64,000 bases of DNA from the IMG/VR virus record IMGVR_UViG_3300032236_001478, positions 1 to 64,000 of that record, one strand, 5' to 3'. Both the position numbers and the translations under genes were made by a program. The stretch is from a virus. The notes below the pieces were generated by a model that was given only the letters and a program-made list of their open reading frames with translations, was not told where the DNA came from and made no database searches. Shown in pieces: positions 4,782-41,155 of this stretch (its first letter is position 1; each line of letters opens with the position of its first letter).

Positions 4782-6410
4782 ATGAAAAAAATAATATTAT
4801 CTCTCCTAATATTATGTTTCGTTGGTTTTAAATCATACGGACAAGTTTACACTCAAACATTTGTTGATAAATGTACTGGGGAAATAAAAATTGCAACAAC
4901 TACATATGTTAATGGTAGTGCTGTTGTATCTTTTTACAATCAAATAAAAACATTTACTCAAGTTCAAGCAACAAATGGCACATTACAAGCTTGGTTGCAA
5001 CAAACATATAACGATTATAATTCATCAGCTTGTCCTGTAAGTCAAACAGTTCAACAAACAGTACAAAATACAGTTTCACAAGCAGCTGCGGCAGCGGCTT
5101 CATCTGCAGCTTCTAATGCCGCATCTAGCGCTGCATCAAGTGCGGCAAGTTCGGCGGCATCAAGTGCTGCTTCTTCATCAGCTAGTTCAGCGGCGAGTAG
5201 TTCAGCGTCATCAGCAGCATCATCTTCGGCAAGTTCTGCTGCAAGTGGTTCAGCAAGTGGAGCGGCATCCTCATCAGCAAGCGGAGCAGCGTCATCATCG
5301 GCTGGTAGTACTTCAACTTCTAGCGCACCACCTGCAAGTAGTTCATCATCAAGTTCTGGTGGATCTACAACATCAGGTGGAAATACTGAAAGTAGTTCGT
5401 CATCATCAAGTGGATCATCTTCTAGTTCGACATCAAGTGGTGGTGAAAGTAGTTCATCATCATCAAGTGGATCATCTTCTAGTTCTAGTAGTTCATCGTC
5501 ATCAGATAGTAAACCAGCATCATCTAGTTCATCATCTGATAGTAAAAGTAGTTCATCAGAAAGTAAATCATCATCTTCAGAATCTAAATCAGAAAGTAAG
5601 AGTGAATCCAAATCTGAAAGTAAATCAGAGTCAAAATCTGATAGTAAAAAATCAGATGATAAAAAACAAGAAGAACAAAAAAAGAAAGAGGAACAACAAA
5701 AGAAAAAAGAAGAGCAACAAAAAAAGAAAGAAGAAAAGAAAAAACAAAACGCATTAAATCCAACTTTAATAGCATCAGATTTAACAACAACGGAGGGACA
5801 AAATAAACAATATAGTGCGATATTGGGATTGGGTTGGAGTAAATCTTCGTTAATGGGTGATGAATCGTATAGTGCAAATGCTATGATATGGTCAACATTA
5901 AATCAATTTGCGTTAAGTGGCGGTTATACTAAAATGAATATGGATAATGGTAAATTAAATTCAATCAGTTCATATGGTTTAACGACAGCATATTTAAGTG
6001 GTAACATAATGAATTTAGTTAGTTATACTTGGATTAAACCAAATCCAAAATATGGCACATATGGTTACAATGTTGGCGTAATTAACTTATTGCTAAGAAA
6101 CACAAATAAAACTGGATATGATCCTGGATATATTACATCAGCTGTTGTGTTTTGGACTAAACCATTTACATATAGTCCTAAGTTAACATATTCACCACAA
6201 ATTTTTGCGATGTCATCACCTATGTCATATAATTCATTAACGGGATCGACTTTAGTAAACAGACATTTTGGATTTTTAGTAGGAACTAGTGTTGATTATA
6301 AATTATCAAAAAGATTTGGTATGAGTTTCAACTATAAGTTGAATATGAGCACACAACCAGGTTCACACTTTACAAATAACTTTTTGATTGGGTCAAGAAT
6401 GGTATTGTAA
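4782..6410 (+). CDS. Secreted outer-membrane barrel-like protein with Ala/Ser/Lys-rich linker
   Basis: The N-terminal signal peptide (about residues 1-20, cut after SYGQ) leads into a small domain of about 70 aa. Then comes a very long low-complexity region: Ala/Ser repeats from about residue 99, Ser/Gly blocks, Ser-Glu-Ser-Lys repeats to about 286, and a Lys/Glu/Gln tract to about 323. The last 220 aa alternate hydrophobic and polar residues with many aromatic and Gly positions and end in a short hydrophobic strand (RMVL), as in outer-membrane beta-barrels. The linker could cross the periplasm or peptidoglycan. It sits next to the CsgG-like gene, so a joint export or envelope complex is possible. 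Specific function unknown. Confidence 0.6.
   Translation: MKKIILSLLILCFVGFKSYGQVYTQTFVDKCTGEIKIATTTYVNGSAVVSFYNQIKTFTQVQATNGTLQAWLQQTYNDYNSSACPVSQTVQQTVQNTVSQAAAAAASSAASNAASSAASSAASSAASSAASSSASSAASSSASSAASSSASSAASGSASGAASSSASGAASSSAGSTSTSSAPPASSSSSSSGGSTTSGGNTESSSSSSSGSSSSSTSSGGESSSSSSSGSSSSSSSSSSSDSKPASSSSSSDSKSSSSESKSSSSESKSESKSESKSESKSESKSDSKKSDDKKQEEQKKKEEQQKKKEEQQKKKEEKKKQNALNPTLIASDLTTTEGQNKQYSAILGLGWSKSSLMGDESYSANAMIWSTLNQFALSGGYTKMNMDNGKLNSISSYGLTTAYLSGNIMNLVSYTWIKPNPKYGTYGYNVGVINLLLRNTNKTGYDPGYITSAVVFWTKPFTYSPKLTYSPQIFAMSSPMSYNSLTGSTLVNRHFGFLVGTSVDYKLSKRFGMSFNYKLNMSTQPGSHFTNNFLIGSRMVL
5388..5485 (+). repeat. 41-nt direct repeat in the Ser-rich linker
   Basis: Positions 5388-5428 and 5445-5485 are the same 41 nt except for one base, in frame and 57 nt apart. 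The surrounding 5080-5640 consists of TCA/AGT/AGC/GCA codon repeats that could slip or recombine. Confidence 0.85.
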
Positions 6411-6883: not shown

Positions 6884-7348
6884 TTATTGTTCTTTTCTTT
6901 TCCACTTTGCTTCTCTTAATTCTGGGGATAGTTTAAACTGCTCGTCAATTGTATGTTCAATTTCAACATGCACGCATTTTTGTGGTAATTTGAAATTTTT
7001 ATAATAATTGTTAACGTATCCAATTATATTAGCTGACCCTATTGGATTTGCGGAGTGAACGTAAATTTGTGGTAAGGGTATACCTGTTGATATACTTTCA
7101 GAAACCAAGAATTTAGCTGCGTCGTATCCAGTTTTTTCTGTGATATTAGAATAATCAATCATATAATTTTCTTTAACATTATTATAATATTCTATCATTG
7201 CAGTTTCACCTAAATCGTGATCAAGTGATATCAACTCAAATTTTTCTAAACCATGTAATTTTATTTCATATACTAATTCATCATAGTTTCTAACTAATTT
7301 CCAATCTTTATGTGTTGGTATTCTAACATCGTCAAGATATAATCTCAT
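6884..7348 (-). CDS. Cyclic-phosphate-processing receiver-domain (cREC) protein
   Basis: The product begins MRLYLDDVRIP and contains ISLDHDLG at residues 40-47, the two acidic signatures of the cREC receiver-like family. That family was predicted, from its repeated association with RNA ligases and kinases, to process 2',3'-cyclic phosphate RNA ends. Asp6, Asp7, Asp43, His44 and Asp45 are the likely active-site residues. A later IYVHSAN strand fits the receiver fold. ATG 7348 is chosen because the LYLDD strand normally opens the family; ATG 7363, which overlaps the stop of the RNA ligase gene, is an alternative. It is directly downstream of the ligase gene and is probably translated by coupling. 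Confidence 0.7.
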   Translation of the reverse strand: MRLYLDDVRIPTHKDWKLVRNYDELVYEIKLHGLEKFELISLDHDLGETAMIEYYNNVKENYMIDYSNITEKTGYDAAKFLVSESISTGIPLPQIYVHSANPIGSANIIGYVNNYYKNFKLPQKCVHVEIEHTIDEQFKLSPELREAKWKRKEQ

Positions 7349-7352
7349 TTTT

Positions 7353-8390
7353 TCAATTTTCATCTTTCTTAAAAGGTTTAACATATTTTGGATATAATAA
7401 CTTCCAAATTATTTTATGTGTTGGTTTTCCATCATACATTGCAAATAATAATGCTGAGCATGGAAATTGTTTTGCTTTTTCAGCAAAATCTTTTTTATTA
7501 ATTGAGTATATTGAATTGAAGATATTATTATATTCTTCATCAATCTTATAAAATTGTGTTGTTAAACCGTTAGCAGTTTCTTTTACCCAATCATAAAACT
7601 CATCAGGTACATCTTTGATAAGATCGTCTAATGGCATTTCATCTTTAAGGTGTTCCCATATATCTCTTGATGAAATATTAGTTAACAATCTATGTAATCT
7701 TTTATATTCCTCACCTTTGATTTTCATACGAAAACCATTTCTAAAACGAATTACATAACCTTCTTTATTATTACCAATTTCTTCTTTCAACAAATCATAA
7801 CCTTCTCCCCAAGTTTTATATAACATCACTAAGGGGATTTCAGTTATTCTTGATTCATTATCTAAAACTTTATAAGATAACTCACCACCAGTTTTTGTGT
7901 TAATAATTCCTAATAAGACTAACATTTCATTATTACCATAGTCACATACGATTCTATTTTCAGGATAAATTATTTCAAATAGATATGTGTAATTTTCTAG
8001 TAACTGAGCAGTGTTATATTTTGTATCAAGAATATATTTTCCCATTTGGGCTTGTGGTGATGTAAAAGAACCACGAGTGGCCATAATCCATTCACCAGCA
8101 TAATAAAAAAGGATACCTAAAGATCCATCCATTTTTTCATACACTTCATAATCTTCATTAGGAATGTCTTCTGGTTTGTGTTCTTCGTAGTTAAAGAATT
8201 TCTTAAATGGTCGTGCAACAATATCGCCTTTAGAATTAGTAACTAATCCACGACACATCATTGTAATATCATCCCATAATCTTTCGTATTGAACTTTTGG
8301 TGAATAATTCCAAATAGTTAAATCCAAAGTTGGGTGTGTTTGTTTATGTAACAAACCATCTTGATAATATTTTTCTAATGTAGTTAACAC
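7353..8390 (-). CDS. T4 Rnl1-like RNA ligase
   Basis: ATP-dependent RNA ligases join 5'-phosphate and 3'-OH RNA ends. The nucleotidyltransferase motifs are all visible: motif I EKMDGS with catalytic Lys86, motif III around YLFEI (Glu139), motif IV KEGYVIRF (Glu210) and motif V MKIKGEEY (Lys223, Lys225). The upstream CRGLVTNSKGDIVARPFKKFFN segment is typical of Rnl1. At about 345 aa it is close to T4 Rnl1 (374 aa). The start is a GTG at 8390; the frame is closed a few codons further up. A 37-codon frame (ATG 8457 to a stop near 8344) overlaps the start and might be a leader peptide. The gene lies between the kinase and the cREC gene. Confidence 0.85.
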   Translation of the reverse strand: MLTTLEKYYQDGLLHKQTHPTLDLTIWNYSPKVQYERLWDDITMMCRGLVTNSKGDIVARPFKKFFNYEEHKPEDIPNEDYEVYEKMDGSLGILFYYAGEWIMATRGSFTSPQAQMGKYILDTKYNTAQLLENYTYLFEIIYPENRIVCDYGNNEMLVLLGIINTKTGGELSYKVLDNESRITEIPLVMLYKTWGEGYDLLKEEIGNNKEGYVIRFRNGFRMKIKGEEYKRLHRLLTNISSRDIWEHLKDEMPLDDLIKDVPDEFYDWVKETANGLTTQFYKIDEEYNNIFNSIYSINKKDFAEKAKQFPCSALLFAMYDGKPTHKIIWKLLYPKYVKPFKKDEN

Positions 8391-8457
8391 AATTTTTGAT
8401 TGGTGTTTTTTGTGGTGGATTTACCGATTTAATAAAAGATTCGATAAACTGACTCAT

Positions 8458-8883
8458 TTACAATTTGATTTCAAATCGATTCTTCATTTGAAGAAGTTTA
8501 TCTTCAGGTACACCGTGAATATTTTCACCTCCGTGCCTATTTTCTACAACAACAGTGTGTACACGATAGTTGTATCTTTCAGCCATATCATAATAAGCTT
8601 GCATTTCCCATTCCTGAGTAAATGTATTTGCAACAACAATTTTAGCTTTTCGTTGTCTCATTCTTTCTGAACATCTAAATTGACAATAATTATGAGCTTC
8701 TTTTAATCTGTTTGCATCAAAATTATATGTACCTTCTTTATCCACAAAAAAATCATCAGCAGATAAAATTTCAGGTTCGTCAGTTTCTCTAATTTGTAAT
8801 ATAACTTTTGCTAATGTTGATTTCCCAGAACCGGGTAAACCCCTTAATAATATTAATTCACCTTGCAATTCAACAGTATCCAT
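8458..8883 (-). CDS. P-loop polynucleotide-kinase-like enzyme, single domain
   Basis: Walker A GLPGSGKS is at residues 15-22 and the acidic DD pair at 43-44 (SADDFF). An Arg-rich helix (CSERMRQRKA), the VVANTFTQEWEM strand and NIHGVPEDKL complete the pattern of T4 Pnk-like and N4BP2-like kinases. It would phosphorylate 5'-OH RNA or DNA ends. At 141 aa it lacks the HAD phosphatase domain of T4 Pnkp, so 3'-end healing must come from elsewhere; the cREC protein two genes downstream is the obvious candidate. No promoter is seen in the short gap before it, so expression probably depends on read-through from upstream. Confidence 0.75.
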   Translation of the reverse strand: MDTVELQGELILLRGLPGSGKSTLAKVILQIRETDEPEILSADDFFVDKEGTYNFDANRLKEAHNYCQFRCSERMRQRKAKIVVANTFTQEWEMQAYYDMAERYNYRVHTVVVENRHGGENIHGVPEDKLLQMKNRFEIKL

Positions 8884-12263: not shown

Positions 12264-12509
12264 ATGTCAGTAATATCAGAAAAAATTGATGGTAAGAATA
12301 TCATCGTAGAAGTTAAGTCTTCTAACATTAAATCAGCACATTATAACACAGAAAGCGAAAATTTAACTGTAACATTTAATACAGGTGGTATTTATGAATA
12401 CGCTAAAGTTCCTTGGCAGAAGTTTACTAAGTTTAGAATGGCTGAATCGCATGGTAAATTTTTCAATGAACAAATAGCAAAAGCACACAAATACACAAAG
12501 GTAAAATGA
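12264..12509 (+). CDS. KTSC-domain protein, copy 2
   Basis: This 81-aa paralogue of the preceding gene has the same core: SSNIKSAHYNTESENLTVTF, NTGGIYEYAKVP and KFRMAESHGKFFNEQI. The different promoters suggest the two copies are expressed at different times. Its stop overlaps the start of the nucleotidyltransferase gene by 4 bp (ATGA), so the two are coupled and may work together. Confidence 0.75.
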   Translation: MSVISEKIDGKNIIVEVKSSNIKSAHYNTESENLTVTFNTGGIYEYAKVPWQKFTKFRMAESHGKFFNEQIAKAHKYTKVK

Positions 12510-13249
12510 GTTTATTCGAAGAATTGATTGAGGATAAAAAGGAGGATAAAAAGATTATTAAATCTTTTGAGACCAAAGAAACGTTATCACCGCAGATATT
12601 TGAGGCTAACGAAAAGATGCGTGAAGATGTTAAAAATAGGTTATTGGATATATCTGATGATTTTATTGAGTCTTTGGGGGTTGAATTTTTCATACATGAT
12701 ATAGTTTTAACAGGTTCATTAGCAAATTACAATTGGAGCAGTTATAGCGATGTTGATTTACATATTGTTATTGATTTTGAGGATTCAGAATACGATCCGG
12801 CATTGCTTAAAGAATATTTCGACGCAAAGAAAAACGTTTGGAACGAAAAACATAAGATTAAAATTAAAGGATATGATGTTGAGATTTATGTACAAGACGT
12901 AAAAGAACCACATATATCTTCTGGTGTTTATTCAGTTCTTAATGGAAAATGGGTTATCAAACCTAGTAAAAAGAAAGTAAAAATAGACGATACTAAAATA
13001 TTGCAAAAAGCAGAATCAATTGCAAATAAGGTTAATAGCTTAAGAATTGATACTGATAAAGCGATTCTAAATAAAATTGAAGACCTAAGAAAAAAGCTTA
13101 AGGAGTTTAGACAATCCGGTTTAGATACTGGTGGTGAATACTCTTATGAGAATTTAGTATTCAAATTATTAAGAAGAAATGGTACTATTAAGAAACTATT
13201 GGACTTAAAAACAAAGCTAATCGACAATAAATTGTCTGTAGCGCAATAA
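12506..13249 (+). CDS. Nucleotidyltransferase-fold protein
   Basis: This 247-aa protein has the Pol-beta-type motif LTGSLANYNWSSYSDVDLHI: Gly70-Ser71 and Asp82/Asp84, with a third acidic position likely in GYDVEIYVQD near residue 125. The catalytic set is therefore complete, unlike many inactive homologues. The C-terminal third is a Lys-rich helical region. The substrate cannot be told from sequence; nucleotidylation of RNA or protein is possible. It is coupled to a KTSC gene and lies at the head of the packaging gene block. It ends before a weak AATAA/TTATT hairpin with a T tract. Confidence 0.7.
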   Translation: MSLFEELIEDKKEDKKIIKSFETKETLSPQIFEANEKMREDVKNRLLDISDDFIESLGVEFFIHDIVLTGSLANYNWSSYSDVDLHIVIDFEDSEYDPALLKEYFDAKKNVWNEKHKIKIKGYDVEIYVQDVKEPHISSGVYSVLNGKWVIKPSKKKVKIDDTKILQKAESIANKVNSLRIDTDKAILNKIEDLRKKLKEFRQSGLDTGGEYSYENLVFKLLRRNGTIKKLLDLKTKLIDNKLSVAQ

Positions 13250-40309: not shown

Positions 40310-41155
40310 TTATAAAAACATTAAACGTTTAATTCTATTAATGCTTTCATTTAATTGATTATTTTCTTCCTCTTCTGGATTTTCATCACCTGGAACTTCT
40401 GGTTCTGGTGTTGGTTTTGTGCCATTTAATCTTGGTGGTTCTTTAGACGGTTTAGTTTTAGGTTTTGGTTGTGGTAATTCAGTTGCAGCTGGTTCTGTTG
40501 TTGGTTCAGTTGGTGTTGGTTCCACTTGTGGGGTTGGTTGAGTTGGTTGTACCTCAGGTGCTGCTGCAGTTGGTTGAACTTGTGGTTCAACTGGTGTTGG
40601 TTCTGCTTGTGCTTGTGGTGTTGGTTCAGTAGGTGTAACTTCTGGTTCTGCAGTTGGAACAGTAGTTGGTTTTGGTGTTGGCTTTCTTTGTTTTCTTGGT
40701 TTTTTTGGTTCAGCACTGAAATCAGTTGAAGCATATATTTTAATTAACGGCCAATAAGCATTACCATCTTGTTTTTCATCTGGATTAAATCCAGGTTTTG
40801 GACCTTCATAATTGCTATCTAAATCAATTTTGATATTTGACATTCTAGATAATAAAAACGTTCTCCATTGATTTTGTTCCAGTCCTTTTTTAGAAACATT
40901 AGGTGAAGGTACCCAAGCTCTAATAGCCATTTTGTTTTTGTTAGTTAAACCTATCGCAACAGGTTCAACTTTTTTTCTATTACCTTTCAATACTTTTTCA
41001 GGACCTTGTGCTGGACCAGTATACATAAAAGTAATTGGACGTCTATTAACAATAGCATCAACAATAGCTTTCATTCCAGATGTCTTTAATAACATTTTGT
41101 TATATGTTTCACCTGTAAGAACTTCAACTAATAATATTTCAGATAATGATTTCAT
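40310..41155 (-). CDS. WYL-like domain protein with Pro/Thr-rich linker and terminal docking helix
   Basis: The N-terminal 150 aa resemble a WYL domain: VDAIVNRRPITFMYTG, RKKVEPVAIGLTNKNKMAIRAWV and WRTFLLSRMSNIKI correspond to its three characteristic blocks. A long Pro/Thr/Gln/Glu linker (about 155-255) follows. The last 14 residues, LNESINRIKRLMFL, form a short amphipathic helix like those on other proteins here. WYL domains usually sense ligands or nucleic acid in transcription regulators; here there is no DNA-binding helix-turn-helix, so a structural or anti-defence role is possible. Confidence 0.5.
   Translation of the reverse strand: MKSLSEILLVEVLTGETYNKMLLKTSGMKAIVDAIVNRRPITFMYTGPAQGPEKVLKGNRKKVEPVAIGLTNKNKMAIRAWVPSPNVSKKGLEQNQWRTFLLSRMSNIKIDLDSNYEGPKPGFNPDEKQDGNAYWPLIKIYASTDFSAEPKKPRKQRKPTPKPTTVPTAEPEVTPTEPTPQAQAEPTPVEPQVQPTAAAPEVQPTQPTPQVEPTPTEPTTEPAATELPQPKPKTKPSKEPPRLNGTKPTPEPEVPGDENPEEEENNQLNESINRIKRLMFL

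Follow-up and report, generated by a model that had tools for sequence, protein, structure and literature searches.

The window analysed here, 64,000 nucleotides from a virus record of 81,623 bases (81.6 kb), carries on its minus strand three consecutive genes for a kinase (KIN), an RNA ligase (LIG) and a protein of the "cREC" family, together with a fourth gene termed S4 (Table 1). The arrangement of the first three on one strand, described in a sequence-only reading of this DNA, was confirmed, as was the completeness of the motifs in all three products. The record also contains T4-like structural genes, for example those for a prohead protease and a baseplate protein, and the hosts of the virus are Bacteroidota-type bacteria. 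The Pfam scan included about 33 of the record's proteins, and family searches covered the whole record.

Table 1. Genes of the cassette, with coordinates in the window.
Gene	Product	Length	Coordinates	Strand	Basis
KIN	Single-domain P-loop kinase (AAA_33), predicted RNA 5'-OH kinase	141 aa	8458-8883	-	PF13671, phrog_2071, phrog_505
LIG	Rnl1-like ATP-dependent RNA ligase, GTG start	345 aa	7353-8390	-	PF09511, phrog_562
cREC	cREC protein as first called	154 aa	6884-7348	-	PF20274, phrog_1479
cREC	cREC protein with the likelier ATG start	159 aa	6884-7363	-	N-termini of relatives
S4	Uncharacterised fourth gene	106 aa	6496-6816	-	Constant neighbour of LIG

The kinase matches the AAA_33 family far above the curated cut-off (PF13671, E 5e-16, 59.7 bits), with further matches to phrog_2071 (1e-38) and to the polynucleotide kinases of phrog_505 (1e-8). 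Its motifs, GLPGSGKST at 15 and SADDFF at 41, lie in a sequence with 39 near-invariant positions among 42 relatives. Of the two parts of a T4-type Pnkp, the P-loop 5' kinase domain is present and the fused HAD 3'-phosphatase is absent: the protein ends at 141 aa, and HAD_PNKP was not found above the cut-off in 27 related records, so that its description as a single P-loop domain without a 3'-phosphatase is borne out. In the ligase, the nucleotidyltransferase motifs EKMDGS at 85, EGYVIRF at 210 and MKIKGEEY at 222, together with the RNA_lig_T4_1 profile (PF09511, E 2e-22, 80 bits versus a cut-off of 28), agree with the earlier assignment to the Rnl1 type, and the protein also matches phrog_562 (E 2e-73) and the structure of T4 RNA ligase 1 (2c5u, 2e-14). 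Because its score against TIGR02308 (E 1e-20, 74.2 bits) falls below the equivalog cut-off of 242 bits, the enzyme is best termed Rnl1-like, distant from T4 RnlA rather than its equivalog.

The cREC protein is recognised by the cREC_REC profile (PF20274, E 2e-20, 73.6 bits versus a cut-off of 27) and by phrog_1479 (7e-24). An in-frame ATG at 7363 (MKIEKMRLYLDD) is a likelier start than 7348, because the N-termini of relatives (MKIEK.., MKTEK..) match the longer form; a gene starting there overlaps the end of the LIG gene at 7353. With residues numbered from the 7348 start, the motifs are LDD at 5, DHDLG at 43 and HSANP at 98, and 16 positions are invariant in 53 sequences (D6, D7, R9, P11, W16, D43, H44, D45, E71, T73, G74, H98, S99, N101, G104 and N107). 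The invariant histidines H44 and H98 would suit hydrolysis, and inspection of the alignment by eye revealed no invariant C-terminal lysine of the receiver kind. The receiver fold that had been attributed to the protein is weakly supported: although AF2 models the protein with confidence (pLDDT 95.4), receivers match the model weakly (best 7qz2_B, prob 0.94, E 0.096, TM 0.43), no PDB entry matches it below 1e-3, and a phmmer search of the PDB with the sequence gave no match.

A further component of the cassette is S4, which is a more constant neighbour of LIG than cREC is and which also lies 3' of LIG in clusters that have no cREC, as well as occurring outside the cassette. Its AF2 model is confident and has no significant PDB match, and its alignment revealed no conserved group of catalytic residues. 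S4 was also considered as a recognisable nuclease; this was rejected, as PDB and viral fold searches returned only insignificant matches (PD-(D/E)XK, Rai1-like).

Several features of the surroundings vary among relatives. A gene of about 80 aa separates kinase and ligase in many of them (for example L002:4713-4952, MSEFISSFIESVNPKPKMKFHTNL), and in the window no more than the first codons of it survive (8390-8457, minus strand; MSQFIESFIKSVNP), as if the rest had been deleted. The ligase gene itself looks like a target of mobile endonucleases: in L026 (2978-5357) and L037 it is in two pieces with endonuclease-like reading frames beside and between them, L020 and L021 were grouped with these as signs of such targeting, and in L013 (5219-5989) and L006 ligase and cREC are separated by a GIY-YIG-like gene. 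A known intron as the source of the interruption in L026 and L037 was rejected, no Rfam match being found. Other cargo between ligase and cREC includes 273-aa proteins with no Pfam match (L031:5178-5996, L132:7065-7883) and, in L041 (4848-5980), a 2OG-Fe(II) oxygenase-like protein with a 206-aa protein without identity. The plus-strand gene at 4782-6410 of the window encodes a protein with a long low-complexity stretch, Ala/Ser-rich and then Ser/Lys/Glu-rich, and in many relatives it likewise adjoins the cassette on the opposite strand, with a repeat of variable length. Also near the cassette, at 12506-13249 (plus strand), is a nucleotidyltransferase-like protein (PF01909, 8.7e-5; weakly MTPAP-like) that could be an RNA end-processing enzyme. 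At 40310-41155 (minus strand) lies a protein with a WYL domain (PF13280, 2e-4, just under the cut-off; PADLOC WYL, 6e-6), a domain proposed to be a cyclic nucleotide sensor.

How constant the arrangement is was assessed by scans of viral contigs, which yielded 71 cREC loci and from which the best 80 ligase loci and the best 80 kinase loci were taken; cREC and S4 were counted in the ligase-query loci only, clustered at 95% identity (n = 49). In these clusters S4 lies downstream of LIG in 48 and cREC in 39, with 10 lacking cREC; coarser clustering gives cREC in 32 of 42 (90%) and 11 of 14 (80%). The kinase is upstream of the ligase in all 57 testable clusters of the pooled set. The arrangement KIN-LIG-cREC-S4 is thus far beyond chance, and the survey of related phages showed that ligase and kinase do not occur without cREC as often as with it, in keeping with the association first proposed. 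On the ligase tree, at least 6-8 changes of cREC state are required. Another enzyme taking the place of cREC in the cassettes without it was rejected, S4 following LIG there, and whole-record searches of three such contigs (251, 118 and 83 kb) found no cREC. Missing from about one in five cassettes with no local replacement, cREC is therefore frequent but dispensable. In three other phages, a longer annotated Pnk (about 297-345 aa) stands near an Rnl1 relative, with no cREC in the retrieved neighbourhood.

Another property of cREC is that, across phages and Chryseobacterium chromosomes, it recurs with four different families of RNA ligase; the ligase partner is exchangeable. In one phage locus (L255), a KIN relative and an MPE1-cREC pair, MPE1 being one of two calcineurin-like phosphoesterase (MPE) families considered below, accompany a ligase with PF09414 and OB domains (Rnl5/DRB0094-type, TIGR02306 E 4e-27); another locus (G006) has the order HAD_SAK (a HAD "Swiss army knife" phosphatase), MPE2-like Metallophos, kinase, PF09414 ligase. 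In chromosomes of the Chryseobacterium group, cREC (PF20274, 6e-23) occurs with an Rnl2-type ligase (PF09414 + PF18043) and often an RLIG1-like protein. A same-strand Rnl2- or RLIG1-type ligase is present in 58 of 70 loci, and both a ligase and an MPE2 homologue (PF00149 just above the cut-off, 28-33% identity to phage MPE2) in 50 of 70, though with one host group and cREC as the query these are not 70 independent events. Three of the chromosomal loci (L332, L356, L363) contain genes for RNase H-like, ATP-grasp, cREC, Rnl2 ligase, RLIG1-like ligase, MBL-fold, MPE and RNase T exonuclease proteins, and look like a chromosomal RNA-processing or repair cluster.

Loci from which the ligase is missing serve as natural experiments. 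Two (L019 and L310) have kinase, cREC and S4, and two more (L316/L317) have cREC and S4 only. The kinases of L019 and L310 have changed at 7 and 6 of the 39 near-invariant positions, versus at most 2 in every other kinase; as some changes are shared, the two may represent one event. The cREC proteins of the ligase-less loci keep 39-41 of 41 conserved positions, so that constraint on the kinase follows the ligase whereas constraint on cREC does not. Likewise, the cultured Flavobacterium phage immuto_3-5A, complete at 160 kb, has cREC near two phosphoesterases and four tRNA genes, and profile searches of it found no ligase or kinase, including no PF09414 ligase, and no HAD_SAK. The job of cREC is therefore separable from that of the Rnl1-like ligase, and the close tie between the two implied by the sequence-only reading did not hold.

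The source of 3' dephosphorylation is best approached through the related records. At least one MPE match is present in 24 of 27 of these; a relative of the phosphatase in T4 Pnkp and a 2H phosphoesterase, each considered as a source encoded elsewhere, were both rejected, since neither scored above the cut-off in the 27. The MPE1 proteins (about 255 aa) overlap the start of cREC in many of the loci found with MPE1 as the query, and tRNA genes lie near MPE1-cREC loci, 15 of them in L252. In seven relatives, two of them without cREC, LIG is followed on its own strand, 19-24 kb further 3', by a profile-confirmed MPE1. The MPE2 proteins (217 aa) lie between kinase and ligase in L133 and L134 (KIN-x-MPE2-LIG-cREC) and directly after the kinase in L270, where the order is cREC..KIN-MPE2..MPE1..HAD_SAK. 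With MPEs adjoining cREC, within the cassette or 19-24 kb downstream, cREC need not replace a missing phosphatase. Opening of a cyclic phosphate leaves a monoester, and the proposal that cREC supplies the single missing 3' step is accordingly not supported. Searches of the 81.6-kb record found no MPE, HAD_PNKP, HAD_SAK or 2H protein; the record, a fragment, extends about 7 kb from the cassette and does not reach the place where MPE1 is expected. An MPE encoded by the window's own phage would thus lie past the end of the record.

Taken together, KIN-LIG-cREC-S4 is a real RNA-repair cassette of a known type in a variant arrangement. The repair context suggested at the outset gains from a kinase without a fused phosphatase and from the recurrence of cREC beside RNA ligases of four families, and the link of cREC to RNA repair is well supported. 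The chemical steps, as predicted from the families of the proteins, would amount to T4-style RNA repair by a phage in which treatment of the 3' end has become a separate step. KIN would phosphorylate the 5'-OH. Metal-independent ribonucleases leave a 2',3'-cyclic phosphate, which cREC would open; an MPE, phage-encoded elsewhere or supplied by the host, would remove the resulting phosphate, and the Rnl1-like ligase would join 5'-phosphate to 3'-OH. The cassette probably mends RNAs cut by the host, and we infer that the substrate is cut tRNA. The reading in which cREC acts first, by opening the 2',3'-cyclic phosphate of an RNA end, and an MPE then completes the 3' end has, in our judgement, slightly better than an even chance of being correct. 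Counting against it are the cassettes without cREC, the intact cREC of loci without ligase or kinase, the presence of cREC in immuto_3-5A, the lack of a candidate phosphatase in the 81.6-kb record and the lack of a tRNA gene in the window.

The main rival is a role for cREC in counter-defence, in which its substrates would be small signalling molecules (cyclic nucleotides, ADP-ribose derivatives) and not RNA ends, and its presence here would reflect the clustering of anti-defence genes. Its conservation without the ligase, or without ligase and kinase, in L019, L310, L316/L317 and immuto_3-5A would fit such a role, as would the annotation of the gene under the cREC match as a Nudix hydrolase in several other phages, and the authors who named the domain themselves suggested that it might instead act on cADPr or 1''-2'' cyclic products (PMC7824862, PMC9503650). 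Set against this, cREC repeatedly adjoins MPEs, tRNA genes and four families of RNA ligase; moreover, an NAD route through a sirtuin was rejected, as a sirtuin was found in 1 and absent from 17 of the 18 related records tested. We regard this role as rather unlikely. Quite improbable is that cREC alone performs all 3' healing, as the sequence-only reading implied, with cyclic phosphodiesterase and phosphatase activities that would make the phosphatase domain of T4 Pnkp wholly unnecessary: the unfused kinase, the lack of HAD_PNKP and 2H proteins above the cut-off in relatives and the absence of the tested phosphatase families from the record would all agree with it, but that record is a fragment, and MPEs travel with cREC and occur in relatives both with and without it. 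Tail-fibre attachment is the other reported role of T4 Rnl1. Least probable of all is that ligase and kinase serve such a purpose rather than tRNA repair, with cREC an unrelated neighbour, for although phrog_562 is doubly annotated as "RNA ligase and tail fiber protein attachment catalyst" and a wider gene order (lipoprotein, ClpB-like protein) is also conserved, so that neighbours may simply be co-inherited, KIN also occurs with an unrelated RNA ligase and with the HAD_SAK RNA-repair phosphatase, and its residues change where the ligase is lost.

Comparison with known systems places the favoured reading, cREC acting on RNA ends ahead of an MPE, in context. The T4 pair Pnkp and Rnl1 shares with the cassette its 5' kinase and Rnl1-type ligase families and the T4-like structural genes; the cassette differs in its 141-aa kinase without a HAD phosphatase and in the adjoining cREC and S4. 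The bacterial Pnkp1-Rnl-Hen1 system (PMC4411300) is similar in pairing a separate ligase with kinase and phosphatase activities on ribotoxin-cut RNA; there, kinase and phosphatase form one protein, a methyltransferase is present, and the portion of the account consulted does not mention cREC. The Chryseobacterium locus resembles the cassette in its cREC, RNA ligases and MPE2-related phosphoesterase, but its ligases are of Rnl2 and RLIG1 type and no kinase matching the KIN-family profile was found there. The domain was defined and named by Iyer et al. 2021, who reported it in operons with RNA ligases, both in phages and in cellular genomes, proposed cADPr or cyclic 2'-3' ends as its substrates and assigned subsequent dephosphorylation to HAD, calcineurin-like or HD enzymes (PMC7824862). 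A 2022 study, which called cREC experimentally uncharacterised, reported V5-like phages with a sirtuin, a T4-like ligase, cREC, a nucleotide kinase, MazG and sometimes a calcineurin-like phosphoesterase (PMC9503650). These neighbourhoods share with the cassette the T4-like ligase, the nucleotide kinase and, at times, the calcineurin-like phosphoesterase, whereas no sirtuin was found in the window's record. As the link of cREC to RNA repair is thus already published (PMC7824862, PMC9503650), the suggestion that it was not well described no longer stands. What is new is the S4 partner, the linkage to MPEs in this lineage of Bacteroidota phages, in which cREC switches many times between present and absent, the statistics of presence and absence and the comparison of loci that have lost the ligase.

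A broader view, which we offer tentatively as possible but short of probable, is that cREC and an MPE2-type phosphoesterase form a self-contained module for healing 2',3'-cyclic-phosphate RNA 3' ends, used by phages and flavobacterial chromosomes with ligases of four families. On this view a receiver-like scaffold that carries two invariant histidines (H44 and H98) and nothing equivalent to the receiver lysine would have been turned to a new catalytic purpose in cREC. Natural material for testing the role of cREC exists in two cultured Flavobacterium phages of the same host strain, Flavobacterium sp. LMO8: immuto_3-5A, which has cREC, and immuto_2-6A, which has no cREC gene at the corresponding site. 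For what is a widespread family of phages and bacteria, the partner proteins of the linkage and the frequency with which cREC is absent are useful additions, and they sharpen the published prediction into a testable one, in which cREC would act before a calcineurin-like phosphatase, whichever ligase comes next.
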